A DNA stretch of 64,000 bases. It comes from an uncultured Paracoccaceae bacterium. GTDB taxonomy: Bacteria > Pseudomonadota > Alphaproteobacteria > Rhodobacterales > Rhodobacteraceae. Below the pieces are notes generated by a model. The model was not told where the DNA came from. It worked only from the letters and a program-made list of their open reading frames with translations, and did not search any database. Within the stretch, counting starts at the first letter, position 1. Every line of letters begins with the position of its first letter. Shown piece by piece: positions 6,110 through 53,770 of this stretch. Where the stretch lies: NCBI GenBank assembly GCA_947503765.1, contig CANNFA010000006.1, positions 62,001 to 126,000 on the forward strand, given 5' to 3'. The translations under genes were made by a program, and so were the position numbers.

Positions 6110-6451
6110 TCATTCCGACTTAGCCGCGTTTTCCATCTCGTCCAGCGCCAGCGCGGAATGGGCATAGGCGCCGCCCGCGCGCATCTCGGCGGCGACCCAG
6201 ATCGCTTCCATGATCTCGGCCTCGCTCGCCTCGTGGCGCAGGGCGGCCTTGGTGTGGCCCTTGATGCAATAGGGGCACTGGGTGACATGGGCGACGGCCA
6301 CGGCGATCAACTGCTTGGTCTTCTTGTCCAGTGCGCCATCGGCAAAGACGGCCTGGCTGAAGGCGGTGAACGCCGCGTCCGCCTCGGGGGTCAGGGCCTT
6401 GCGGCGCTTGGCCAGCGGGCCGGTCTGCGTCGGGTAAAGCGGGTCCGTCAT
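6110..6451 (-). CDS. AhpD-like carboxymuconolactone decarboxylase-family protein
   Basis: 113-aa all-alpha protein of the AhpD/CMD superfamily. The signature is CPYCIKGHTKAALRHEASEAEIMEAIWVA: Cys59-x2-Cys62 and His66 form the thiol-based relay seen in AhpD-type peroxidase partners. It is therefore more likely a small cytosolic antioxidant disulfide reductase than a decarboxylase. It lies 121 nt upstream of ccoN on the same strand and shares the divergent control region with ric, suggesting a role under low oxygen or nitrosative stress. The ATG overlaps a short upstream ORF (ATGA) and has its own GAAAGGA Shine-Dalgarno. Confidence 0.88.
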   Translation of the reverse strand: MTDPLYPTQTGPLAKRRKALTPEADAAFTAFSQAVFADGALDKKTKQLIAVAVAHVTQCPYCIKGHTKAALRHEASEAEIMEAIWVAAEMRAGGAYAHSALALDEMENAAKSE

Positions 6452-6630
6452 GGTCGGTCCTTTCCGAATCGTTCAGCAGCGGCCGGGGCGCCTGCGCTCG
6501 GGAAACCCGGCGCCGCGCCGCCGCGATCCGGCACGGTCCCGCGCAGCGGCGCCGCTTGCATCGGCGGTACCGCGGGGTCCACGGGCAGGGCCCGCCGGCG
6601 GAAATCGGACAGTGTTTTCTCGACCAGCAT
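6448..6630 (-). CDS. Possible small leader protein (uncertain)
   Basis: 60-codon ORF (MLVEKTLSDFRRRALPVDPAVPPMQ...) overlapping the AhpD-like gene start by four bases. An AGAAGGA sequence lies upstream of its ATG. The first 25 codons use GC-rich third positions like real genes here, but the second half is Ala/Pro/Gly-rich and looks non-coding. It could be a coupled leader peptide or simply open sequence. I recognise no family. Confidence 0.35.
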   Translation of the reverse strand: MLVEKTLSDFRRRALPVDPAVPPMQAAPLRGTVPDRGGAAPGFPSAGAPAAAERFGKDRP

Positions 6631-6692
6631 GGCTGCACGTCCTTCTGGGCCGATGCGTCACAGTGGCACGGATGGCCGGTTCGCGGCGCGTC

Positions 6693-6744
6693 TTGACAGG
6701 TTTCGATATAGAGCAGAATAATCGGTATTGCAAATACCTGTTAT
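6693..6744 (+). promoter_or_regulatory. Candidate promoter with long palindromic operator upstream of ric
   Basis: TTGACA at 6693-6698 is followed 18 nt later by AATAAT (6717-6722), a plausible sigma70 pair. A perfect 6-3-6 palindrome, GGTATTGCAAATACC (6724-6738), lies directly behind it and extends to an imperfect 12-3-12 palindrome over 6718-6744 (10 of 12 positions pair). The GTATT/AATAC half-sites resemble those of Rrf2-family nitric-oxide regulators such as NsrR. Overlap with the -10 box suggests repression of ric relieved by NO. The regulator assignment is inference. Confidence 0.55.
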
Positions 6745-6807
6745 GGCCGTTCACGGCGCGGTCCCACCGCAGGAAACCCGCACCCGCCACGCCCCAGGAG
6801 ACCAGAG

Positions 6808-7485
6808 ATGCAGCCCGAAGCCAAGACGTTCCATGACCGTCCCGTCGGCGAGATCGCCGCGACCCTGCCGGGGGCCAGCGCCGTATTCCGCCTGTTCGGA
6901 ATCGACTTCTGCTGCCACGGCGAGAGGTCGCTGACAGAGGCGGCGAACGGCCGCGCGCTGGACCCCGCCGACCTGGAGGCGGCGCTTGCCGCGCTCGACC
7001 CGGACGCCGTGCCGGCCGCGCCGCAGGAAACCGGCGCGCTGATCGACCACATCATGACCCGCTACCACGAGGTGCACCGCCGCCAGCTGCCCGAGCTTGC
7101 CACGCTGTCGCGCAAGGTCGAGACGGTCCATGCCGCGCATCCGGCCGTGCCCGCCGGCCTTGCCGACCTGCTGGAGCGGATGATCGGCGAGCTGGAGGTG
7201 CACATGAAGAAGGAAGAGCTGATGCTGTTCCCCGTCATGCGGCGGCAGGCGGGGGGCGCCCTGAACACGCCGATCGGCCAGATGCGCCACGACCACGACG
7301 ACCACGCACAGGCGCTTGCCCGGATCGAGGCGCTGACCGGCGGCTATGCCGCGCCAGAGGGCGCGTGCCGGTCGTGGCAGGCGCTGATCGCCGGGGCAGA
7401 GGCGCTGCGCAACGACCTGATGGAGCATATCCACCTGGAAAACAACGTGCTGTTCCCCCGGTTCGAAGCGGCGGGCCGGGCCTGA
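6808..7485 (+). CDS. ric: Iron-sulfur cluster repair di-iron protein (Ric/YtfE/ScdA/DnrN)
   Basis: 225-aa cytosolic hemerythrin-like di-iron protein that helps repair Fe-S clusters damaged by nitric oxide or peroxide. Residues 1-60 form the ScdA_N domain with the paired cysteines of GIDFCCHGERSL (Cys35-Cys36). The C-terminal hemerythrin domain shows the expected His/Glu ligands in DHIMTRYHEVHRRQLPEL, LEVHMKKEELMLFPVM, RHDHDDHAQAL and LMEHIHLENNVLFPRF. The ATG at 6808 has a CAGGAGA Shine-Dalgarno. It is transcribed divergently from the AhpD-like gene, with a palindrome between them, and adjacent to the cbb3 oxidase. The setting fits a response to NO or low oxygen. Confidence 0.95.
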   Translation: MQPEAKTFHDRPVGEIAATLPGASAVFRLFGIDFCCHGERSLTEAANGRALDPADLEAALAALDPDAVPAAPQETGALIDHIMTRYHEVHRRQLPELATLSRKVETVHAAHPAVPAGLADLLERMIGELEVHMKKEELMLFPVMRRQAGGALNTPIGQMRHDHDDHAQALARIEALTGGYAAPEGACRSWQALIAGAEALRNDLMEHIHLENNVLFPRFEAAGRA

Positions 7486-7525
7486 CCCGACCGCGCGGCC
7501 TTCGTCACCGCGGACGTGCCGGCCG

Positions 7526-7707
7526 GCACGAAGCACGGCGTGCCGGCCGCGCGCCAGCGGCGCCGCCCGAAGCACCACGCGCCCCGGACCCGATCCGGGG
7601 CCTCGCACCCTCCGGCGCACGAAGCGCGGCGTGCTGGCAGCGCGCCAGGGGCGCCGCCCGAGGCGTCACGCGCCCCGGAGCTGATCCGGGGCCTCGCACC
7701 CGCCGGC
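7526..7707. repeat. Two-copy 91-bp tandem repeat with REP-like hairpins
   Basis: Two adjacent direct copies (7526-7616 and 7617-7707), roughly 85-90% identical by eye, fill the gap between the convergent ends of ric and the sigma-factor gene. Each copy ends in a GC-rich hairpin of the form CCCCGGA-N5-TCCGGGG followed by CCTCGCACCC. The hairpin core resembles the CCCGGGTCAGGCCCGGGG palindrome at 51.1 kb, suggesting one dispersed REP-type family. It may serve as a bidirectional transcription barrier. Confidence 0.8.
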
Positions 7708-7721
7708 GAAAGCCCGGCCAG

Positions 7722-8423
7722 CTAGACCGGCCCGTCCCGGCGCAGCGCCGCGATCACCCGGTCGGCCATGCCCGCACAGCGTGCGCCGTCGAACGGGAAC
7801 ACGGACGAGAACTCTGCGTCCAGCCCCTCGCGGAACGCGTCGCGCAGCCGCCGGCGGGCGCGGTAGACGCGGGTCTTGACCGTCACCGCATTGAGGCCGA
7901 GCAGCACGGCCACCTCGCGCGTCGACATCTCCTGCACCTCGCGCAGGATGTAGGTCAGGCGCAGCGGCTCGGGCAGGGTGTCGATCGCGCGTTCGAGAAA
8001 GGCGCGAATCTCTGCCCGGCCAAGCTCTGCCTCCGGTGTGGTCGGCGGGGGACGGGTCATGTCGGCGGCGCTTCCTTCGATGTCCTTGCGATACTCGGCG
8101 ATGTCCACGATGCGGGCACGCCGCCGCAGCCGCGCGTAAGCCTCGTTCATGGCGATCCGGGTCAGCCATGTGGCGATGCCGGCCTCGCCGCGAAAGCCGT
8201 CCAGCCCGGTGAAGCCGGCGACATAGGCCGCCTGCACCACGTCTTCTGCCTCGGCATCGTCGTGCAGGATGCCGCGCGCCACGCGGAATAGCTGCCGGTT
8301 GCAGCGCCGGATCAGCTCGCGGATCGCCGGTTCGTTCCCGCGCCGGGCCAGCGCCACCAGATCCGCCTCGGGACGGGTATCGCGCGGGGCGGGCGGCGGG
8401 GCGGCGGCCTGTTGCGGAACCAT
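7722..8423 (-). CDS. ECF-family RNA polymerase sigma factor
   Basis: 233-aa extracytoplasmic-function sigma factor. Region 2 (about residues 35-100) includes LFRVARGILHDDAEAEDVVQAAYVAGF and the -10-recognition helix TWLTRIAMNEAYARLRRR. Region 4 (about 150-200) carries the -35-binding helix-turn-helix LREVQEMSTREVAVLLGLNAVTVKTRVYRARRRLRD. The start at 8423 has AGGAGGG just upstream; the in-frame ATG at 8438 lies inside that ribosome site. It follows the cupredoxin gene by one base and no anti-sigma gene is adjacent, which is unusual for the class. It probably belongs to a three-gene operon with the two upstream secreted proteins. Confidence 0.92.
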   Translation of the reverse strand: MVPQQAAAPPPAPRDTRPEADLVALARRGNEPAIRELIRRCNRQLFRVARGILHDDAEAEDVVQAAYVAGFTGLDGFRGEAGIATWLTRIAMNEAYARLRRRARIVDIAEYRKDIEGSAADMTRPPPTTPEAELGRAEIRAFLERAIDTLPEPLRLTYILREVQEMSTREVAVLLGLNAVTVKTRVYRARRRLRDAFREGLDAEFSSVFPFDGARCAGMADRVIAALRRDGPV

Positions 8424-8424
8424 G

Positions 8425-8943
8425 TCAGCCCTCCTCATGGCGGACCTTGCCGGCTTGCAGGATGTCCGCGACCGGCGGGAACCCGTTCAGGATGACCGGG
8501 TCCAGATCGCCGGCGGGATAATCCGCGAACCCGTCTGCGCCGGGCGGCGCCACGACGATGCGTCCCACCATTCCGGACAGCTCGTGCGGGATGCAATAAT
8601 AGTCGTAGACGCCCGGCACCTCCAGCGTCACCTCGAATGCCTCGTCCGTCAACAGATAGCCGCTGTCGAACGCCGCCGCGCCGCCCGGTATCCGGCGCGG
8701 GTGATCGAAATTCGCCGGGGCATAGGCCGTGGCCGTGTGTGCGTTGGCCGGGTCGCGGTTGATCCAGCGGATCGTCTGGCCCGGCCGGATCAGCACGCCA
8801 TACGGGTCGAACCACACCCTCGAGCCGTCGCGCCGCCCGGTCATCGTGATCTCCGCCGCCGGGGCCGCGCTCGCCAGCCCCGGCAGAAGCGGGAGCGCGG
8901 CAGCGATGCTGCCGCCCCCCCACAGAAACTCCCTGCGCCGCAT
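8425..8943 (-). CDS. Tat-exported cupredoxin (blue-copper-like protein)
   Basis: 172-aa periplasmic single-domain cupredoxin. An N-terminal twin-arginine-type signal (RRREFLWGGG then a hydrophobic stretch to ASAAPA) precedes a plastocyanin-like fold. Candidate type-1 copper ligands are His69 in NAHTATAYAP and Cys117, His120 and Met125 in YYCIPHELSGM. The start at 8943 is chosen because the signal begins there; the ORF track runs 39 codons further into the previous gene. It may act as a small electron carrier or copper chaperone. One base separates it from the upstream gene and one from the ECF sigma gene, so all three are probably co-transcribed. Confidence 0.88.
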   Translation of the reverse strand: MRRREFLWGGGSIAAALPLLPGLASAAPAAEITMTGRRDGSRVWFDPYGVLIRPGQTIRWINRDPANAHTATAYAPANFDHPRRIPGGAAAFDSGYLLTDEAFEVTLEVPGVYDYYCIPHELSGMVGRIVVAPPGADGFADYPAGDLDPVILNGFPPVADILQAGKVRHEEG

Positions 8944-8944
8944 C

Positions 8945-9361
8945 CTACTCGGCCACGCGCGATTCGTCGCCGACGGAAACGTGCCACAGGACGATGTGCT
9001 CGTGCGGCTCTTCAACCCCCGGATGGCCGGCATTGAAGTAGATGTCGACGTGATCGACATTGCCGCCCGGCGCGGCCAGGTTGTCGAACGCGGTATCGGC
9101 GTTCATCGCCGAAAGCGGGATCATGTAGATCGTGCTGACAAGCTGCCCGTCGCGGTCATAGGCCATGAACGGCCCGGCCGGCAGCGTCGCCGGATCCACG
9201 AAAAGCTGGCCCATGCCGGGCAGGAAATCGGGCAGCGGCACCAGATCGCTGACCTTCTGATAGGGCGCGTCGGGCGGGCTGCCGGCAACCGAGGCGTCCT
9301 GCGCAAGGGCGGGCGCGGCGGCGAGGGCACCGATTGCGGCGGCGGCGAAAAGCGTTTTCAT
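8945..9361 (-). CDS. Secreted protein of unknown function, possibly DUF5602/TTHB210-like
   Basis: 138-aa protein with a clear Sec signal peptide (MKTLFAAAAIGALAAAPALAQ, cleavage after ALA). The mature part has a FLPGMGQLFVDP segment, a GPFMAYDRDG segment and a His-rich stretch near the C-terminus (DHVDIYFNAGHPGVEEPHEH). This resembles the DUF5602/TTHB210-type family, a tentative recognition. The histidines could bind a metal, in keeping with the neighbouring cupredoxin. It is the first gene of the sigma-factor operon, behind a candidate ECF promoter. Confidence 0.7.
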   Translation of the reverse strand: MKTLFAAAAIGALAAAPALAQDASVAGSPPDAPYQKVSDLVPLPDFLPGMGQLFVDPATLPAGPFMAYDRDGQLVSTIYMIPLSAMNADTAFDNLAAPGGNVDHVDIYFNAGHPGVEEPHEHIVLWHVSVGDESRVAE

Positions 9362-9413
9362 CTCTTGATCCTTTCCATGATCGCAAGGCGCGACCTTCGC
9401 GCCATGTCTGCAT

Positions 9414-9443
9414 CATTGGATGCGCGGCGCGCGGAAAGGTTCC
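9414..9443 (-). promoter_or_regulatory. Candidate ECF-type promoter of the sigma-factor operon
   Basis: Read on the minus strand, GGAACC (9443-9438, within GGGGAACCTTTCC) is separated by 15 nt from CATCCAATG (9422-9414). A GGAAC-type -35 with a short spacer is the classical ECF pattern. It lies about 50 nt upstream of the secreted-protein ATG at 9361. Autoregulation by the ECF factor encoded at the end of the same operon is the natural reading, but is inferred. Confidence 0.5.
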
Positions 9444-9471
9444 CCGGTTTTTCGGTTTCGTCTGCCCGCGG

Positions 9472-9915
9472 CTAGCCGGCAGTGTCGATCCAGATCGTCA
9501 CCGGCCCGTCATTGACCAGCGCCACCTGCATGTCCGCGCCGAAGCGGCCCATGGCGACCGGAACGCCCTGCGCCTGCACCGCGCCCGCGAAATGTTCGTA
9601 CAGCCGCTCGCCGTCCTCGGGCGCGGCGGCGGTGGAAAAGCCGGGGCGGTTGCCGCGCGAGGTGTCGGCGGCCAGCGTGAACTGGCTGACTACCAGCGCC
9701 GCGCCGCCGGTGTCCAGCAGCGCGCGGTTCATCCGGCCTTCGGCATCGGCGAAGATGCGCAGCCGGGCGATCTTTGCGGCCAGCCGGTCCGCCTCGGCCT
9801 CGGTGTCGCCGCGCATCGCGCAGACCAGCACCAGCGCGCCGGGGCCGATCTCTCCGACAACGGCGCCCTCGATGCGCACCGACGCGCCGCTCACCCGTTG
9901 GACCAGGGCGCGCAT
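9472..9915 (-). CDS. dtd: D-aminoacyl-tRNA deacylase
   Basis: 147-aa cytosolic proofreading enzyme that hydrolyses D-amino acids (and glycine mischarged on tRNA-Ala) from tRNAs. Family motifs are at the N-terminus ([17 protein letters not shown]), the catalytic loop [17 protein letters not shown], and the C-terminal cross-subunit NDGPVTIW (Gly-Pro motif). The length is typical of DTD. The ORF track fuses it to an upstream frame; the ATG at 9915 lies 2 nt after the stop of the sugar-kinase gene, so the two are probably co-transcribed. Confidence 0.96.
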
Positions 9916-9917
9916 CC

Positions 9918-10838
9918 CTAAAGCTCCCGGTCCCAGGGCGGGTTCGCGCCCTTGCGGCTGACCGTGACGGCGGCGGCGCGCACGCCCAGCGACAGCGCGC
10001 CCCGCAGGTGATCCTCGGTCAGGGTGTCCAGCGCCGTCTTGTCCAGCATGCCGGCCCGGTGCAGCGCCGCCAGCACGCCGGCATTGAACGTGTCGCCCGC
10101 GCCCACCGTATCGGCCACCTCGACCCTGGACGCGGCGACCTGCACCTCGGCCGCGTTCGTGAAGGCGCGGGCGCCCTTGTCGCCCTCTGTCAGGCAGACG
10201 GCGCGCGGGCCCATTTGCAGAACCTTGCCCGCCAGTTCCGAAAGATCGCCGTCCCCCATGATCCAGCGCAAATCCTCGTCCGACACCTTCACGATGTCCG
10301 CCAGTGCAAGCATCCGGTCCACCCGGCCGCGATAGGCGTCCTCGTCGGTGATGAAGGAGGTGCGGATATTCGGGTCGATCATGATGGTCCGCCGCCCCGC
10401 CTCGCGCGTGGCCAGCGCCTCGAACGCCGATCCGCAGGGCTCGCCCACCAGGCTGATGCCCCCGAAGAACAGCGCCGACACGGCATCGTCCAGCTCGGGC
10501 AGGGCGTCCGGCGTCATCATGCGAAGCGCCGTGCCCTCGTCGTAGAAGGCATAGCTGGCCTGCCCGTCCGTCAGCTTGACGAAGGCCAGCGTCGACGGGC
10601 GGTCGACGACCGGGGCGTAATCGGTCGACACGCGGCTGTCCTTCAGCGCCTCCTGCAACATCTCTCCGAACATGTCGCCGGCCAGCGCGCAGTAGAACGC
10701 CGACGGCGCCCCCAACCGGCCCAGCGCGATGGCGGTGTTGAACACCGCGCCGCCCGGATAGGGGGCGAATGCCTCCTCGCCCCCGGTGCTGGTGCGGGGC
10801 AGCATGTCGATCAGGGCTTCGCCGCAATTCAGGATCAT
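9918..10838 (-). CDS. PfkB-family carbohydrate kinase (fructokinase-like)
   Basis: 306-aa ribokinase/PfkB kinase that phosphorylates a sugar with ATP. The N-terminus [14 protein letters not shown] matches the GE-x-LID start of fructokinases. The C-terminal signature [19 protein letters not shown] provides the catalytic Asp and anion hole. The [11 protein letters not shown] segment is also seen in fructokinase-type members. Fructose is the likeliest substrate but this is not certain. The start at 10838 is the first ATG giving a family-like N-terminus. It could serve fructose released by the fructoside cluster at 32-35 kb, a speculative link. Confidence 0.88.
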
Positions 10839-10914
10839 ACCGCGCGTCCTTTTCCCGGTGTCATGCCCCTGATCTAACCCCGCGCCCCCGGCAGGGCAAC
10901 GCCGGCGGGCCGCA

Positions 10915-39008: not shown

Positions 39009-40283
39009 GTGAGCGGGGACGGCCCTTTCGTCACCCGCGCCTGGGTCCTGCATCCGGACATCCAGACCGACCGCGCAGCACGCGCGCCCGGTCCCGCGCT
39101 CGAGGAGGCCGCGGCGCTGGCTGCCGCCCTGCCGGATCTCGAGGTCCTGCATGCCGAGAGCATCCGCCTGCCGCGGGCCCATCCCGGCACATTGTTCGGA
39201 TCGGGCAAGGTCGCCGAACTGGGCGCCATGCTGGAAGAGGCGGAAATCGACCTGGTGCTGGTCGACGGGCCGCTGTCGCCGGTGCAGCAGCGCAACCTCG
39301 AACGGGCGTGGAAGGTCAAGATCCTCGACCGCACCGGCCTGATCCTCGAGATTTTCTCGGACCGCGCGCGCACCCGCGAAGGCGTGTTGCAGGTGGAGAT
39401 GGCGGCGCTGTCCTACCAGCGCTCGCGCCTGGTGCGCGCCTGGACGCACCTGGAACGGCAGCGCGGCGGCTACGGCTTTGTCGGCGGGCCGGGCGAGACC
39501 CAGATCGAGGCGGACCGCCGCGCCATCGACGACCAGCTCGTGCGCCTGCGCCGGCAGCTCGACAAGGTGGCCCGCACCCGCGAGCTGCACCGCAGCGCCC
39601 GCGCCAAGGTGCCGTTCCCGATCGTCGCGCTGGTCGGCTATACCAATGCCGGAAAGTCGACGCTGTTCAACCGGATGACCGGTGCCGAGGTGGTGGCCAA
39701 GGACATGCTGTTCGCCACGCTCGACCCGACGATGCGCGGCGCGGTCCTGCCGTCGGGACAGGAGATCATATTGTCCGACACGGTGGGGTTCATCTCGGAC
39801 CTGCCGACGCAACTTGTCGCCGCCTTCCGTGCTACGCTGGAAGAGGTGCTGGACGCCGACCTGATCCTGCATGTGCGCGACATCGCGCATCCGCAATCGG
39901 ACGAGCAGGCCGAGGATGTCGAGGCGATCCTGGCCGATCTGGGCGTGGCCGAGGACACGCCGCTGATCGAGGTGTGGAACAAGGTCGATCTGCTGGCGCC
40001 CGAGCGGCGCGCCACGCTGGAAACGCTGGCCGCGCGGCATGCCAACGTGATCGGCGTGTCGGCCCTGACCGGCGAAGGGCAGGAGCCGCTTTTCGCCGCC
40101 ATCGCCGATGCGCTGGAGCCTCCCAAGACCGACACCCGTCTGACGCTGGACTTTTCCGAAGGCCGTAAGCGCGCCTGGCTGCACGACGAAGGCGTGGTCG
40201 AGGCCGAGCGCCAGACCGACACCGGGTTCGAGCTGGACATCCGCTGGACCGCACGCCAGCGCGGCGCCTTCGGCCGTCTGTAG
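39009..40283 (+). CDS. hflX: Ribosome-associated GTPase HflX
   Basis: 424-aa GTPase that splits or rescues stalled ribosomes under stress. An N-terminal HflX domain (LHPDIQ ... TLFGSGKVAELGAML, DRTGLILEIFSDRARTREG) and coiled linker (QIEADRRAIDDQLVRLRRQL) precede the G domain with G1 GYTNAGKSTLF, G3 DTVGFISDLP and G4 NKVD. The GTG start at 39009 is 3 nt after hfq, indicating co-transcription. Confidence 0.97.
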   Translation: MSGDGPFVTRAWVLHPDIQTDRAARAPGPALEEAAALAAALPDLEVLHAESIRLPRAHPGTLFGSGKVAELGAMLEEAEIDLVLVDGPLSPVQQRNLERAWKVKILDRTGLILEIFSDRARTREGVLQVEMAALSYQRSRLVRAWTHLERQRGGYGFVGGPGETQIEADRRAIDDQLVRLRRQLDKVARTRELHRSARAKVPFPIVALVGYTNAGKSTLFNRMTGAEVVAKDMLFATLDPTMRGAVLPSGQEIILSDTVGFISDLPTQLVAAFRATLEEVLDADLILHVRDIAHPQSDEQAEDVEAILADLGVAEDTPLIEVWNKVDLLAPERRATLETLAARHANVIGVSALTGEGQEPLFAAIADALEPPKTDTRLTLDFSEGRKRAWLHDEGVVEAERQTDTGFELDIRWTARQRGAFGRL

Positions 40284-40458
40284 GCGGGGGGCGGCTGGCG
40301 GAAGCCAGGGCAATCCGACCGCCTATTGAAGTGGCCCAGCCCATTTTGGAACGCAAGGTGCCGCGGTCTCATTTCGAACATCGACAGCACCAATTGATGC
40401 TTGCACAACGGCATAGAAAACCCTTGCATCCCCATGTGTTACAGCTACCCATGGGCGC

Positions 40459-41382
40459 ATGGTGAAGCTTGTCCTCCTGCACAAGGCCGGCTCGATCTAC
40501 GAGGATGAACCGGATGTCGTTTACGATTTCCCACGTGCCTACCTGCGGGCGGTCAAAGAAGCCGTGGGTGATTGGATTGTCTATTACGAGCCAGTCAAGG
40601 CGGGGCCGCGCGGCTATTTCGCCGTGGCAAAGATCGAACGGATAATACCAAAGCCAGAGGTGGAGGGGCGGTTCCTCGCCATGATCGAACCAGGCACCTA
40701 CCTTGCCTTCGATCGGGAGGTGCCACGGCTGATGGGCGGGCGCCCCATGGAAGCGTTACTGACCGAGGCGGATGGTACGCCAAAGAAGGGTGGGGCGGTG
40801 CAGCTTGCCGTGCGCCGGCTGCCGGAGGCGGATTTCGCGCGCATCGTCAATCTCGGGTTACCCCAAGACCTGGAGCGGATCGAGGCCACACGTTATGATC
40901 CGCAGCCGGCAGGCTTTGATGACGGGGCGGAGCCGTTCGAACGACCGGTACTTGAACGGCTCACTCGAAGACCTTATCGCGACGTCGCATTTCGGCGAAA
41001 GGTGCGGGAGGCCTACGGTTATCGCTGCGCGATGTCAGGGCTAATGTTACGAAACGGGGGCGGGCGGCCGGAGGTCCAAGCGGCGCATATTCGTCCCGTC
41101 GAGAGTCAGGGAAGCGACTCGGTGCGCAATGGTCTCGCGCTATCGGGTACTTTGCACTGGATGTTCGATCGCGGCCTGATCTCTGTCGCCGACGATTGCG
41201 AAACAATTCTCGTCTCTCACAACAAGGTGCCCGGCGAAGTTGTGGGGCGCTTGCTGGCGCGTGACGGCAAGCTGGTCAGACCTGAGAACCCACACAACGT
41301 TCCACACCCTGAGAACCTGCGCTGGCACCGCGAGAACGTCTTCGGCCGGGCGTTACCAGGCGAGCACACCCCCTGGGATTAG
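40459..41382 (+). CDS. HNH endonuclease with PUA/EVE-like N-terminal domain
   Basis: 307-aa putative restriction nuclease. The N-terminal domain (about residues 1-150; VYDFPRAYLRAVKEAVGDWIVYYEPVKAGPRGYFAVAKIERI) looks like the PUA-superfamily readers found in modification-dependent restriction enzymes. The C-terminal HNH_2-type nuclease shows CAMSGL, EVQAAHIRPVESQGSDSVRNGLALSGTLHWMFDRGLI. A type IV, modified-base-dependent defence role is the likeliest reading. It stands alone with no methylase. Codon usage is visibly less GC-rich than its neighbours and the flanks are AT-richer, pointing to horizontal acquisition between hflX and hdeD. Confidence 0.8.
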   Translation: MVKLVLLHKAGSIYEDEPDVVYDFPRAYLRAVKEAVGDWIVYYEPVKAGPRGYFAVAKIERIIPKPEVEGRFLAMIEPGTYLAFDREVPRLMGGRPMEALLTEADGTPKKGGAVQLAVRRLPEADFARIVNLGLPQDLERIEATRYDPQPAGFDDGAEPFERPVLERLTRRPYRDVAFRRKVREAYGYRCAMSGLMLRNGGGRPEVQAAHIRPVESQGSDSVRNGLALSGTLHWMFDRGLISVADDCETILVSHNKVPGEVVGRLLARDGKLVRPENPHNVPHPENLRWHRENVFGRALPGEHTPWD

Positions 41383-41718
41383 CGGAGCCCGGCTACAGCT
41401 ATGAACGCGTTTTGCGTGCGATCTTTATGGCTATCGTCGGGAGCGCGCGAAAGTTGCGCGTTGCTCACGTTCACTTCCCTTTGAGCATGAGAATGGCAAC
41501 GTGGACCAGCGCGGCCATCCTCCCAAGTCGTTATAGGATAAACAACTTAAGATTGAGCGGTAGGGCACTACCGCCGTCCCGACCAGTTGCACGTATTCTC
41601 CGCAGGATATTCCAGCCCCGAAGAAGCCGATGGGTGCCGCGCCGTTCCGGTGCTATCTTTGCGGGGAACCGGGATGCGGGTGCTTGAGTTGGCTCTGCAA
41701 AGGCAAGGGGAAAAGATC
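41383..41718. other. Gene-free 336-nt stretch after the HNH gene
   Basis: No convincing ORF or RNA is seen. Base composition is lower in GC than the surrounding genes, like the HNH gene, with AT-rich patches (GTTATAGGATAAACAAC near 41531). It probably marks the right flank of an acquired segment. Confidence 0.5.
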
Positions 41719-42324
41719 ATGTCCGACAACAACGAAGGCAATGGCCAGGGCCGAAGCCCGGCCGACAGGGCGGGGCGCGATCTGGCCGGGGGCGCGCCGC
41801 CGGAAGTGCTGGATGCGATCCGCGATAGCCGCGGCTGGTTCATCGGGCTGGGCATCGCGCTGATCGTGGCCGGCATCGCGGCGCTGCTGTTTCCGCTGGT
41901 CGCCAGCATCGCGGCCAAGGTGATGATCGGCTGGCTGATGCTGATCGCGGGCGCCGTCACGTTGTGGCACGCCTTCCAGACGCGCAGCTGGGGATCGACC
42001 CTGTGGAACGCGCTGATGGGCCTGCTGTCGCTGGCGGTGGGCGTGTATCTGGCGTTCTTTCCGCTGACCGGGCTGGTCGGCCTGACGCTCCTTCTGGGGG
42101 CGACATTCGCCGCGCAGGGGGTGTTCGAATGCCTGATGGCGATGCAGAACCGGGACCGGCGCGGCTGGGGCTGGCTGCTGGCATCGGGGGTGCTGTCGGT
42201 CGTTCTGGGGCTGGTGCTGCTGTTCGGCCTGCCGGGAACGGCGGCCTGGGCGCTGGGCCTGATGCTGGGCATCCATTTCGTGACCACGGGTGCGGCGCTG
42301 CTGGCGCTGGCGCGGGCGGCGTGA
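41719..42324 (+). CDS. HdeD/DUF308-family membrane protein
   Basis: 201-aa inner-membrane protein with six predicted helices arranged as three hairpins (WFIGLGIALIVAGIAALLFPLVASI, VMIGWLMLIAGAVTLWHAF, and similar), the HdeD/DUF308 pattern. E. coli HdeD supports acid resistance at high cell density; whether this homologue does so is unknown. The start at 41719 has AGGGGAAAAG upstream and a polar, Asn/Gly-rich N-terminus; the ORF track begins 44 codons earlier in non-coding-looking sequence. Confidence 0.85.
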   Translation: MSDNNEGNGQGRSPADRAGRDLAGGAPPEVLDAIRDSRGWFIGLGIALIVAGIAALLFPLVASIAAKVMIGWLMLIAGAVTLWHAFQTRSWGSTLWNALMGLLSLAVGVYLAFFPLTGLVGLTLLLGATFAAQGVFECLMAMQNRDRRGWGWLLASGVLSVVLGLVLLFGLPGTAAWALGLMLGIHFVTTGAALLALARAA

Positions 42325-43853: not shown

Positions 43854-43930
43854 GCCGCCTTAGCTCAGTTGGTTAGAGCGCTGGATTGTGGATCCAGAGG
43901 TCCCCTGTTCAAGCCAGGGAGGCGGTACCA
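43854..43930 (+). tRNA. tRNA-His (GTG anticodon)
   Basis: 77-nt cloverleaf with encoded CCA. The D-loop AGCTCAGTTGGTTAGAGC, anticodon arm CTGGA-TTGTGGA-TCCAG with anticodon GTG, T-arm CCCTG-TTCAAGC-CAGGG and acceptor GCCGCCT/AGGCGGT (one G-T pair at 1-72) are all clear. The discriminator is A73 and the base before position 1 is T, so there is no encoded G-1. This matches the altered tRNA-His identity reported for a clade of alphaproteobacteria. Confidence 0.95.
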
Positions 43931-49029: not shown

Positions 49030-49856
49030 CGGAGACGGCAATGAGCGACGAGGGCGGAGTCGGCGGCAGGGTCGGCAAGGGGCTGCAATCGCTGTCCACG
49101 TTCGGCAGCGGCACGACGCGGCTGGAAATCGCCGCGATCATCGCCACCGCGGTGATCGTGATCGGCGGGCTGGAGGCGGCGCTGCGCTGGTTCGAGGTAC
49201 CGCATTACATCCTGCCGCCGCCCTCGGCCATCGCGGTGGCGCTGGTCGGGGATTTCCCGCTGATCCTGCCGCATCTGGGCCATACGCTGGTGGTGCTGCT
49301 GTCGGGCTTTGCCATCGGCGCGGGGATCGGCATCTTTCTGGCCGCGATCATCACGCAGTTTCCCTTCGCGGAAAAGATCATCGCGCCCTATATCCTGATC
49401 CTCGTGACCACGCCGATGCTGGCGCTGGTGCCGCTGCTGATCCTGCGCTTCGGCTTCGGCTACGAGCCGCGGATCATCGCGGTGGCGCTGGCAAGCGGGC
49501 CGATGGTGATGATCAACTCGGCCACCGGCTTTCGCCGGGTCGATGCCAACAAGATCGCGCTGGCGCGGTCCTACGGCGCGTCGGTGCTGCAGATCTTCTG
49601 GAAGATCCGCGCGCCGATGGCGCTGCCGATGATCCTGGTCGGGCTGATGATCGGCGCGATCTTCGGGCTGCTGACGGCGGTGGGCGCGGAAATGGTCGGC
49701 GGCGGGTTCGGCCTCGGCAACCGGCTGACCACCTATTCGTCGATGATCCAGATGCCGCAATTCTTCGGGGTCGTGCTGATCCTGTCGTTCCTGGGCATCC
49801 TGATCTACGTGATCTTTTTCCTGATCGGCAAGAAATGGGCAAGCTGGGAGACCTGA
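49026..49856 (+). CDS. ABC transporter permease (SsuC/TauC-type)
   Basis: 276-aa inner-membrane permease with about six helices and the EAA loop IALARSYGASVLQIFWKIRAPMALPMILVGL. HYILPPPSAIAVALVGDF is the typical periplasmic entry. The ATG at 49026 overlaps the ATPase stop; an alternative ATG at 49041 with GGAG upstream is also possible. It imports the ligand bound by the next gene product. Confidence 0.93.
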   Translation: MTETAMSDEGGVGGRVGKGLQSLSTFGSGTTRLEIAAIIATAVIVIGGLEAALRWFEVPHYILPPPSAIAVALVGDFPLILPHLGHTLVVLLSGFAIGAGIGIFLAAIITQFPFAEKIIAPYILILVTTPMLALVPLLILRFGFGYEPRIIAVALASGPMVMINSATGFRRVDANKIALARSYGASVLQIFWKIRAPMALPMILVGLMIGAIFGLLTAVGAEMVGGGFGLGNRLTTYSSMIQMPQFFGVVLILSFLGILIYVIFFLIGKKWASWET

Positions 49857-49915
49857 GGCGCCGGGTCCGGCGCGGCAATCGAATGAACGGCGCAACAAAA
49901 CTGGGAGGAACAGAA

Positions 49916-51064
49916 ATGAAAACCGCACACACATCCGCACTGACGCGGCGGCGGCTGCTGCAGGTCTCGGCCGGCGGCGTGGCGCTGTCGACCCTTGGCA
50001 TTCCGCGCGGCGCGCGCGCCGAGGGCTATGACGGCCCCTTCACCTGGATCAGCCCGCGCGGCACGCTGGAGGTGCTGGATGATTACGGCTTCTGGGTCGG
50101 CAAGAAGCTGGGCTATTTCGACGATCTGGATGTCGAGATGCAGCCGGGGCCGTCGGACGGCACCGCGACGGTGAAATTCGTCGATGTCGGCCAGGCCGAC
50201 ATGGGCTTTCCGTCGCCCGGCGTGTTCTCGTTCGCGATCGAGAACGGCATGGACCTGAAATCGGTGTTCAGCATGGGCGCGCTCGACACGTTCAGCCTGG
50301 CCTTCCGCAAGGGCGAGGGGCCCGGCGACATCAAGCAGATCGAGGGCAAGACGATCCTTCTGGGCTCCGCCGCGTGGGAATCCATCGTCAACCCGATGCT
50401 GGCGGCGCAGGGCGTCGACACCTCGACCATCACCTATGTCGAGGCCGGCTGGCCGACCTGGGGCACCGCGCTGGCCGCGGGGCAGGGCGACGCCGCGCTG
50501 TCCTGGGAGGGGCTGCGCGCGGAGTGGATCAGCACCGGGCTGGAATTCGAATACTGGCTGGGCGTGCAGAACTCGCCCCTGCCGGCCAACACCTTCGTGG
50601 TGCGCGCGTCGGATCTGGAGGATGCGGACAAGGTCGCCTTCCTCGAGAAGTACCTGCGCGGCTGGGCCAAGGGCATGCAGGCGGCCGAACACAACCCCGC
50701 CGCCGCCGTGCACGCAGTGTTCGAGCAGTTCCCGACGCTGGCCAAGAACCTCGGGCCGGAGCTGGGCCTGATGTCGATCCTGCAGCAGATGAACGTGTTC
50801 CGCGGGGACATGTCCAAGCGCGAGGGCTGGGGCTGGCACGACATGGAAAGCTGGCAGACCTTCTTCGACATCTCGGCCGAGATCGGCCAGACGTCGAGCG
50901 CGATCCAGGCATCCGAGGTCTGCACCAACACGCTGATCGCGCCGGCCAACGACTTCGATCACGCAGCGGTCAAGGCCGATGCCGAGGCCGCCGATGTGCC
51001 GGCCGATCTGGCCGCCGTCGATGTCGAGGCGCTGAAGGCGTCGATGTTCGACCAGGCGATCTGA
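49916..51064 (+). CDS. ABC transporter substrate-binding protein, NMT1/THI5-like
   Basis: 382-aa periplasmic receptor with a Tat-type signal (LTRRRLLQVSAGGVALSTLG ... ARA). The mature domain starts FTWISPRGTLEVLDDYGFWVGKKLGYFDDLDVEMQPGPSDG. TWGTALAAGQGDAALSWEGLRAEW covers the hinge. It differs clearly from the 24.4-kb receptor and is probably specific for another ligand. The start at 49916 has GGGAGGAACA upstream; the ORF track begins far upstream in another gene. It ends the ABC operon before a REP-like palindrome. Confidence 0.9.
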   Translation: MKTAHTSALTRRRLLQVSAGGVALSTLGIPRGARAEGYDGPFTWISPRGTLEVLDDYGFWVGKKLGYFDDLDVEMQPGPSDGTATVKFVDVGQADMGFPSPGVFSFAIENGMDLKSVFSMGALDTFSLAFRKGEGPGDIKQIEGKTILLGSAAWESIVNPMLAAQGVDTSTITYVEAGWPTWGTALAAGQGDAALSWEGLRAEWISTGLEFEYWLGVQNSPLPANTFVVRASDLEDADKVAFLEKYLRGWAKGMQAAEHNPAAAVHAVFEQFPTLAKNLGPELGLMSILQQMNVFRGDMSKREGWGWHDMESWQTFFDISAEIGQTSSAIQASEVCTNTLIAPANDFDHAAVKADAEAADVPADLAAVDVEALKASMFDQAI

Positions 51065-51081
51065 CGCCCCGGCGCGAAGGG

Positions 51082-51165
51082 TGCAACACCCGTCCCGGGC
51101 CTGACCCGGGACCTCCCCCTTTGCTCCGGGCGCGAGGCCCCGGGTCAGGCCCGGGGCGGGGTGCA
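51082..51165. repeat. Large nested GC-rich palindrome (REP-like)
   Basis: TGCA...CCCGGGCCTGACCCGGG (left, from 51082) pairs with CCCCGGGTCAGGCCCGGGG...TGCA (right, to 51165) as one long imperfect hairpin, and each arm is itself palindromic. It fills the gap after the ABC operon and resembles the hairpins at 7.5-7.7 kb. It may attenuate transcription between the transporter and the catabolic genes. Confidence 0.75.
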
Positions 51166-51256
51166 AAAAACGCAGGCGGCGCGCATGGGGCGGGCCGCCG
51201 GCGGCAAGACAGACAGGGCCGGCCGCCGTGCCGCGCCCCGGCAGGGAGAGTAGAAT

Positions 51257-52339
51257 ATGAGCGATCCGGTACGCATTCTCGTGGTGGGACTTGGCAACAT
51301 GGGAGCCAGCCACGCCAGCGCCTATCACCGCATGGACGGGTTCGAGATCGTGGGCCTGTGCTCGCGCAGTATCAAGTCCAGGGACCTGGCGGCCGAACTG
51401 GCCGGTTACCCGCGATTCGAGGATTACGAGGCCGCGCTGGCCGAGTTGAAGCCCGACGCGGTGTCGATCAACACCTGGCCCAACACCCATGCCGATTTCG
51501 CCATCAAGGCGATGGAGGCGGGCGCGCATGTCTTCATGGAAAAGCCCATCGGTACCACCAACGAAGAGGCCGAGGCCGTCGTCGCCAAGGCGCGCGAGAC
51601 GGGTCGCAAGCTGGTGCTGGGCTATATCCTGCGGGTGCACCCGTCGTGGATAAAGTTCATCGAACTGGGCAAGACGCTGGGCAAGCCGCTGGTGATGCGG
51701 CTGAACCTGAACCAGCAATCGTCCGGCGATGCGTGGATGTGGCACAAGAACCTGATCGACAGCCTGATCCCGATCGTCGATTGCGGCGTGCATTACGTCG
51801 ATGTGATGTGCCAGTTGACCGGCGCCAAGCCGGTGCGCGTGCACGGTATCGGCGCCAAGCTGTGGGCCGAGGCGGACAAGCAGAATTACGGCCATCTCCA
51901 TGTGACCTTCGATGACGGATCCGTGGGATGGTACGAGGCCGGCTGGGGCCCGATGATGTCGGAAACCGCGTTTTTCGTGAAGGATATCGTGGGGCCGAAG
52001 GGCGCGGTGTCGATGGTGCCGCAGGAAGAGGCCCGCGCCGATGCGGAAAAGCTGTCGGACAGCGCCGATATCGACAAGCACACCAAGACGGACGCGATCC
52101 GCTATCACCATGCCGAGGTCGACGCCGACAAGAATTTCGTCAAGGCGGACGAGATCACCTCGATGGAGGACGAGCCGGGCCACCAGGAACTCTGCGACCG
52201 CGAGCAGGAGTTCTTTCTCAACGCGATCCGCGAGGATGTGGATCTCGGGGAATTCATGGACGCCGCCGTGAACAGCCTGCGCATCGTGCTGGCCGCGGAA
52301 CAGAGCATCAAGGAGGAGCGGGCAATCACGCTCGACTGA
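51257..52339 (+). CDS. Gfo/Idh/MocA-family oxidoreductase
   Basis: 360-aa NAD(P)-dependent dehydrogenase. The Rossmann start is VRILVVGLGNMGASHASAYHRMDGFEIVGLCSRS and the active-site motif is HVFMEKPIGTT (EKP). DCGVHYVDVMCQLTG carries the usual D-x3-H catalytic pair. The family oxidises sugars, inositols and sugar acids. GGGAGAG precedes the ATG. First gene of a long plus-strand catabolic run; an amidase starts 6 nt downstream. Confidence 0.93.
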   Translation: MSDPVRILVVGLGNMGASHASAYHRMDGFEIVGLCSRSIKSRDLAAELAGYPRFEDYEAALAELKPDAVSINTWPNTHADFAIKAMEAGAHVFMEKPIGTTNEEAEAVVAKARETGRKLVLGYILRVHPSWIKFIELGKTLGKPLVMRLNLNQQSSGDAWMWHKNLIDSLIPIVDCGVHYVDVMCQLTGAKPVRVHGIGAKLWAEADKQNYGHLHVTFDDGSVGWYEAGWGPMMSETAFFVKDIVGPKGAVSMVPQEEARADAEKLSDSADIDKHTKTDAIRYHHAEVDADKNFVKADEITSMEDEPGHQELCDREQEFFLNAIREDVDLGEFMDAAVNSLRIVLAAEQSIKEERAITLD

Positions 52340-52345
52340 AAAGCC

Positions 52346-53770
52346 ATGGAAGATATCGACAGACTGTACCGCACCTCCGACGCTGTCGGGCTGGCCGAAA
52401 GCGTGGCCAGGGGTGACGTGACCGCCGCCGATCTGGTCGAGGCCGGGGTGCGCGCCATCGAAGAGATGAACCCCGCGCTGAACGCGGTCATCCACAAGCT
52501 CTACGACATGGGGCGCGAAGGGGCGGACGCGGTGAAACCCGGCAGCAGCCCGCTGGCCGGGGTGCCCTTCCTGCTCAAGGAACTCGCGTCGGCCTGGAAG
52601 GGGGCGCCGGTGACCAATTCGTCGCGCTTCCTCAAGGACCAGGTGGCGCCCGAGGACAGCGAGATCAGCCGCCGGTTGCGCGCGGCCGGGCTGCTGCTGA
52701 TGGGCAAGTCGAACGCGCCGGAAAACGGCTGGTCGATCACCACCGAGCCGGCGCTCTACGGGCCGACCGTGAACCCCTGGGATGCCAGCGTCACCGCCGG
52801 CGGGTCCAGCGGCGGCACGGCGGCGGCCGTCGCCTCGGGCATGATCCCGATCGCCGAGGCCAGCGACGGCGCCGGGTCGATCCGCGTGCCGGCCTCGTGC
52901 TGCGGGCTGGTCGGGCTGAAGCCGTCGCGCGGCCGCGTGACGCTGTCGCCGATCGCCGATTTCTGGGCCGGCTGCGCCTATTTCCTGTGCAACTCGCGCA
53001 GCGTGCGCGACACGGCGGCCTATCTGGACGTGATCCAGGGCGCGCTGCCGGGCGATCCCTACTGGATCGCGCCGCCCGAGACGCCCTACATGACCCAGAT
53101 CGGGCGCGCACCGGGCAAGCTGCGCGTCGGGATGGTCACGGTGCCTCCGGGCGGCGGGCCGGTCGACCCCGAGATCGCGGCGCTGGTCGAAAAGGTGGGC
53201 AAGGTGCTGGAAGGGCTGGGCCACGACGTGACCGGCCACGAGATGTGGCTGCCCGAGGAGGCCTGGCGCACCTATACCGACATGACCTGCGTCGAATCCG
53301 CGGGGCTTTACGATTTCCTGGCCACCATCGTCGGCCGCCCGGTCACGCCCGAGGATGTCGAGCCGCTGACCTGGGCGATCATCGAGCGGGGCCGCGCCAC
53401 CAAGGGCACCGAGCATGCGCAGCGCATCGAGCAGGTGCGCCAGATGGCGCGCGGCATCGCGCAGGATCTGGACGGGTTCGACATCGTGCTGACCCCGACC
53501 CTGACCCAGAAACCGCGGCCCGTGGGCTACTACGACATGTCGATGACGGATCTGGACGCCTACAACGCGCTCTGGGCCGATAGCGTGTTCCAGTACCCGT
53601 TCAACATGTCCGGCCAGCCGGCGATCTCGCTGCCGCTGGGCGAGGCTGGCGGTCTGCCGGCGGGTGTGCAACTGATCGCGCGGCGCGGCGACGAGGGGCG
53701 GCTTCTGGCCCTGTCGGCGGTGCTGGAGACGGAAATGCCATGGTCCGGGCGGCACCCGCCCCGACCCTAG
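52346..53770 (+). CDS. Amidase-signature family hydrolase
   Basis: 474-aa amidase that hydrolyses a carboxamide or acylated amine. The Ser-cisSer-Lys triad is visible: Lys in PFLLKELAS, cis-Ser in AGGSSGGTAAAVASG and nucleophile Ser in EASDGAGSIRVPASCCGLVGLKPSRGR. Length and motifs are standard. No signal peptide is seen, so it acts in the cytosol on an imported compound. Its closest neighbours are the Gfo/Idh/MocA gene (6 nt) and an amidohydrolase (32 nt). Confidence 0.94.
   Translation: MEDIDRLYRTSDAVGLAESVARGDVTAADLVEAGVRAIEEMNPALNAVIHKLYDMGREGADAVKPGSSPLAGVPFLLKELASAWKGAPVTNSSRFLKDQVAPEDSEISRRLRAAGLLLMGKSNAPENGWSITTEPALYGPTVNPWDASVTAGGSSGGTAAAVASGMIPIAEASDGAGSIRVPASCCGLVGLKPSRGRVTLSPIADFWAGCAYFLCNSRSVRDTAAYLDVIQGALPGDPYWIAPPETPYMTQIGRAPGKLRVGMVTVPPGGGPVDPEIAALVEKVGKVLEGLGHDVTGHEMWLPEEAWRTYTDMTCVESAGLYDFLATIVGRPVTPEDVEPLTWAIIERGRATKGTEHAQRIEQVRQMARGIAQDLDGFDIVLTPTLTQKPRPVGYYDMSMTDLDAYNALWADSVFQYPFNMSGQPAISLPLGEAGGLPAGVQLIARRGDEGRLLALSAVLETEMPWSGRHPPRP

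Follow-up and report, generated by a model that had tools for sequence, protein, structure and literature searches.

Within the window (the whole 64,000-nt stretch of DNA that was analysed) the intact ORF at 40459-41382 (+), with an ATG start and a 307-aa product, probably codes for a restriction endonuclease of the EVE-HNH kind, a modification-dependent (type IV) enzyme that works from a single gene and independently of NTPs; we would put the probability of this reading at about 0.8. It is based on an HNH_2 nuclease motif with conserved catalytic residues, on matches to the enzymes VcaM4I and TagI, on predicted folds of the PUA superfamily, on purifying selection (assessed, as was residue conservation in a 67-sequence alignment, against relatives) and on the solitary, patchy occurrence of the gene. 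The EVE-HNH proteins form a class of modification-dependent restriction endonucleases that is already established (PMC7897488; PMC7641849). Few of its members have been characterised; here we saw a divergent and well-conserved subfamily with a reader half missed by Pfam. The subfamily is little studied and common in marine alphaproteobacteria; no published description of the alphaproteobacterial subfamily was found in the literature searched, the coverage of which was incomplete.

The HNH_2 nuclease claimed in the original prediction of a 307-aa protein is readily recognised: residues 190-243 (41026-41187, +) matched Pfam HNH_2 (PF13391) with E 5.4e-11 and a score of 42.6 bits (cutoff, 21). 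The catalytic residues of VcaM4I, H224, N241, D250 and D254, have been mutated and tested (PMC7897488); they align, respectively, with H210 (41086-41088), N224 (41128-41130), H233 (41155-41157) and D237 (41167-41169), all on the + strand. These four residues are invariant in 67 close sequences (alignment A1) as well as in 27 more diverse ones (alignment A2). A profile search of the PDB matched VcaM4I (2.9e-8) and TagI (4.9e-7), both modification-dependent enzymes. Judged by these alignments, the C-terminus carries an HNH (beta-beta-alpha metal) nuclease with a complete catalytic set.

Comparison of the gene with ten relatives gave dN of 0.07-0.22 and, where unsaturated, dS of 1.1-2.6; with the same restriction on dS, dN/dS was about 0.05-0.1 in both domains. 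Such low dN with respect to dS indicates strong purifying selection on both domains. Some relatives have copies disrupted by stop codons or frameshifts, which fits a defence gene that the cell can do without.

The N-terminal half (first 160 residues) had no significant match in Pfam, and the N-domain alone had no PDB sequence match even at E 10. Below the threshold, Pfam EVE was matched with E 0.3 by the window protein and with E 0.0021 by the best of 34 relatives; EVE was the only Pfam family matched by several members (11 of 34, all sub-threshold). Structure prediction agreed with the PUA-like fold originally claimed for this half. Residues 1-163 (40459-40947, +), modelled anew by AlphaFold2 with more diverse relatives (61 sequences; pLDDT 81.5), had best Foldseek matches nearly all of which belong to the PUA superfamily or include a domain of it: 2gbs, the top solved structure (TM 0.51/0.57, probability 1.00), several YTH domains close behind it, 2hd9, 1zce, ASCH proteins and the SRA domain of SUVH5, with SRA folds ranking far below EVE and YTH; the best E value for this model was only 1.9e-3. 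Three of these structures, 2gbs, 2hd9 and 1zce, we take to be EVE proteins. Since VcaM4I was absent from the best 50 Foldseek matches of the N-domain model, we consider membership of the predicted fold in the PUA superfamily well supported and the EVE subtype likely. A full-length AlphaFold2 model, of lower confidence and only moderate quality (pLDDT 69), had VcaM4I as its best solved match (E 5.8e-8, probability 1.00).

The base-binding pocket of VcaM4I includes T11, E15, P24, W82 and Y130. Residues S12, D16 and P25 of the window protein, matched by eye without superposition, share the spacing of T11, E15 and P24; D16 and P25 are invariant in the family and S12 is conserved in at least 90% of sequences. 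Counterparts of W82 and Y130 were not placed in the window protein.

With this architecture, the EVE-like domain would flip and read a modified base in DNA entering the cell; by the analogy of VcaM4I and TspA15I, this base would most likely be a cytosine modified as 5hmC or 5mC. The HNH domain, probably as a dimer, would then cut nearby. Host DNA would not carry the target mark, so a methylase partner would be unnecessary. The gene would bring its own promoter, give a probably leaderless transcript and be transferred horizontally in a piece of about 1.1 kb. We infer base flipping, dimeric cutting and a role in defence against phage or plasmid.

One could suppose that the mark read by such a type IV enzyme is not a cytosine modification at all, being instead a phosphorothioate, m6A outside the host methylation context or a hypermodified phage pyrimidine. 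The nuclease half does resemble the NCBIfam model of phosphorothioate-dependent restriction (NF045808; E 3e-24), YTH domains, which read m6A, are among the matches of the N-domain model, and it has been proposed that relatives of EVE recognise other bases (PMC7641849). However, the match to NF045808 is limited to residues 170-295 (model positions 157-283), leaves the sulfur-binding part unmatched and stays far below the cutoff (85.6 bits against 180), while characterised EVE-HNH enzymes prefer 5hmC/5mC (PMC7897488). We regard a mark other than modified cytosine as unlikely, though worth keeping in mind.

Among known systems, VcaM4I of Vibrio campbellii (EVE-HNH, PDB 6yex, PMC7897488; also TspA15I and CmeDI) is close in its two-domain plan with a PUA-type N-domain, in length (309 aa against 307 aa), in the aligned catalytic set of the HNH C-domain and in being encoded by a solitary gene with no methylase. 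It differs in having an N-domain that is not alignable by sequence with that of the window protein and Asp250 in place of His233; the window protein belongs to a distinct subfamily, with copies in about 20% of the genomes sampled from the host's family. TagI (SRA-HNH, PDB 6ghs, PMC6212794) has a related HNH nuclease half and a reader from the PUA superfamily, but this reader is of the SRA rather than the EVE-like type and the alignment is confined to the nuclease half; with no match to Pfam SRA, the window protein does not group with SRA-HNH enzymes of the TagI type. The SBD-HNH phosphorothioate-dependent enzymes (NF045808, PMC7461809) share a related nuclease half, but the window protein, with its score below the family cutoff, falls outside this family too. 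PcaRCII of Pectobacterium (PMC8989522), likened here by its description, is a solitary methylation-dependent HNH enzyme with a nuclease half like those of VcaM4I and TagI; its host and regulation are different. An 'HNH endonuclease' of Paracoccus denitrificans DYTN-1 was considered as the same enzyme and rejected (16.2 kDa against ~34 kDa; PMC11473606).

The gene lies in DNA of unusual composition, and on this point too the original description stands: the 5' flank has a GC content of 0.589, the gene one of 0.616 and the 3' tail one of 0.574, as compared with 0.674 for the window. Codon use is likewise atypical. The GC3 of the gene, 0.694, compares with a mean of 0.861 (sd 0.059) for the 47 predicted genes of the window, and its codon-usage score (z = -2.8) is the most deviant but one among them. 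No methylase gene adjoins it in the window, and the 336-nt AT-richer tail (41383-41718) proved, as had been stated, free of any convincing gene, with no Rfam match and no tRNA. An RNA element or tRNA at the site was considered and rejected: Rfam gave no match at E values up to 1, and the sole tRNA gene in the window, tRNA-His (GTG) at 43854-43930 (+), is located shortly after mmcB, ~2.5 kb past the HNH gene. Elsewhere in the window, three further ORFs of low GC3 and unusual codon usage had no Pfam match: 49805-53755 (-, 1316 aa), 10008-10877 (+) and 8729-9475 (+).

Of 397 genomes from the host's family, 81 (about 20%) had a homologue; none of four congeners did. The closest copies, found in other genera, are 79-88% identical, whereas the HflX proteins of the same genomes are only 66-72% identical to HflX of the window genome; the congeners, devoid of the HNH gene, have HflX 77-81% identical. 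This combination of patchy presence, absence from the congeners and identity exceeding that of HflX strongly supports horizontal acquisition of the gene, which is the simplest reading. More distant relatives (44-49% identity) reside on rhizobial, agrobacterial and sphingomonad plasmids; among five annotated plasmid loci none had a restriction-system methylase next to the gene, while toxin-antitoxin genes adjoined it in two or three. Matches in phages were restricted to the nuclease half. By its genomic occurrence, the gene is solitary, patchy and devoid of a cognate methylase partner.

Nor is the gene conserved at this locus across the family: at none of 80 relatives' loci in named genomes, which almost all belong to Rhodobacteraceae-type genera, was it located beside hflX, hfq, hdeD or mmcB. 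The flanking genes in relatives are diverse and mostly metabolic, and the intergenic sites are unrelated. The 129 flanking proteins matched 170 Pfam families, with no family matched by more than five proteins; among the flanking families listed, no integrase or transposase recurred. A single-gene unit encoding an HNH nuclease and spreading horizontally to many sites could bring to mind a free-standing homing (selfish) endonuclease, propagated by cutting empty sites; yet site-specific homing does not agree with insertion sites that all differ and lie between unrelated genes, the protein has a conserved PUA-like reader domain, and its closest solved relatives are restriction enzymes, so that we find this explanation very improbable. 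It is just as hard to believe in a conventional type II enzyme with a methylase elsewhere, or in an RNA-directed nuclease, although PUA-superfamily domains often bind RNA and type II HNH models gave weak matches to the protein, since a type II gene standing alone among unrelated neighbours in dozens of genera would be toxic with no linked methylase and the best matches are modification-dependent DNA nucleases.

In the window genome the HNH gene is indeed placed, as originally described, between hflX (39009-40283, +) and a gene for a HdeD/DUF308 protein (41719-42324, +), both identified by Pfam, but these two genes are not neighbours in any of the four congeners (G153, G397, G398 and G399), as judged by protein comparisons (tblastx maps were too noisy in GC-rich DNA). 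The order hfq-hflX is kept in the congeners and is followed by other genes in all four, with a conserved penicillin-acylase-like gene soon after in three; in the complete genome G399 hdeD is ~700 kb from hflX. In the window genome the acylase block that follows hflX in congeners is on another contig (C11), and the HNH gene is followed by hdeD, a gene for a 111-aa protein and mmcB. With hflX and hdeD apart in congeners and the acylase block on C11, the locus compares as a lineage-specific rearrangement junction occupied by the HNH gene; the junction may instead be a misassembly. Thus, of the insertion at a chromosomal spot proposed originally, horizontal acquisition holds, while the hflX-hdeD interval does not represent an ancestral empty site.

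The 336-nt tail does not belong to the transferred unit: it shares no sequence with the relatives' downstream DNA, and the DNA similarity to relatives detected by blastn ends about at the stop codon of the HNH gene. Nor did the tail show homology to the DNA that precedes hdeD in congeners. Upstream of the gene, blastn detected the block at -45 alone, whereas an nhmmer profile of the upstream DNA of ten relatives matched 40315-40446 with E 2.8e-10 (next match, E 1.5). A segment at 40315-40458 (+), common to relatives at unrelated loci, is likely the left part of the unit; the transferred unit would likely consist of the HNH gene with ~145 bp upstream, about 1.1 kb in total.

This segment contains a promoter-like pair, CTTGCAT and TACCCA (40423-40451, +), lying roughly 35 and 12 nt upstream of the ATG. 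Over 77 loci the consensus is CTTGC.TT-N-TTTCCTGG at a fixed distance from the ATG, with CTTGC at ~-35 and TTTCCTGG at ~-12; a Shine-Dalgarno-like tetramer was seen in none of the 77. The fixed distance of the promoter-like pair and the lack of a Shine-Dalgarno sequence suggest a leaderless mRNA.

In relatives L031-L041, from several genera, a GC-rich block GGGGGCGCTGCCCGGCCG occurs ~142-153 bp upstream at a near-constant distance. Terminal inverted repeats around the unit were considered and rejected, with the upstream GC-rich block of several relatives having no downstream counterpart. At three of these loci, on large contigs (L031, L033 and L034; about 4961 to 6400-7900), the HNH gene is within a 1.4-2.9 kb DNA segment common to three genera; the segment includes downstream genes, one of them weakly matching the Mob_Pre relaxase, and is possibly a small mobilisable chromosomal element. 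Its downstream part was absent at the window locus by nhmmer. A derivation of the tail from the mobilisation genes seen in relatives, or from a RecQ-UvrD helicase, was considered too and rejected, as neither nhmmer nor tblastn gave a match in it.

The subfamily would readily supply new modified-base readers and could be a cause of failed plasmid transfer into bacteria of the host's family. The HNH enzyme opens no new mechanism.

At 8 of 77 HNH loci (L054, L056, L057, L059, L065, L069, L071 and L075) the HNH gene is followed within 20 nt, on the same strand, by a gene for a 1660-aa protein that combines DEAD/Helicase_C (RecQ-like) with UvrD domains and has an N-terminus that looks exonuclease-like by eye. 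Homologues of this helicase were found in 61 of 397 family genomes. Both genes occur together in 19 of the 397 genomes, where about 12 would be expected (Fisher p 0.037, with no correction for kinship); with co-occurrence as weak as this, an obligate partnership was rejected and the pairing is treated here as a side observation. One could speculate further about a portable single-gene immune cassette (the gene and ~145 bp with a leaderless promoter) that lands between housekeeping genes with no transposase, and whose tandem with the exonuclease-like-RecQ-UvrD helicase in one clade would make an undescribed two-gene modification-dependent defence system; we consider this idea doubtful. The window genome does have a full-length homologue of the helicase (64% identity; G000:C6:219160-224028), unlinked to the HNH gene at a distance of 116 kb. 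It is situated outside the window in an AT-richer stretch (G000:C6, about 215,600-228,000; L224) together with a PLD/ResIII/DUF3427 helicase and a McrB-McrC pair, a stretch that is probably a defence island.
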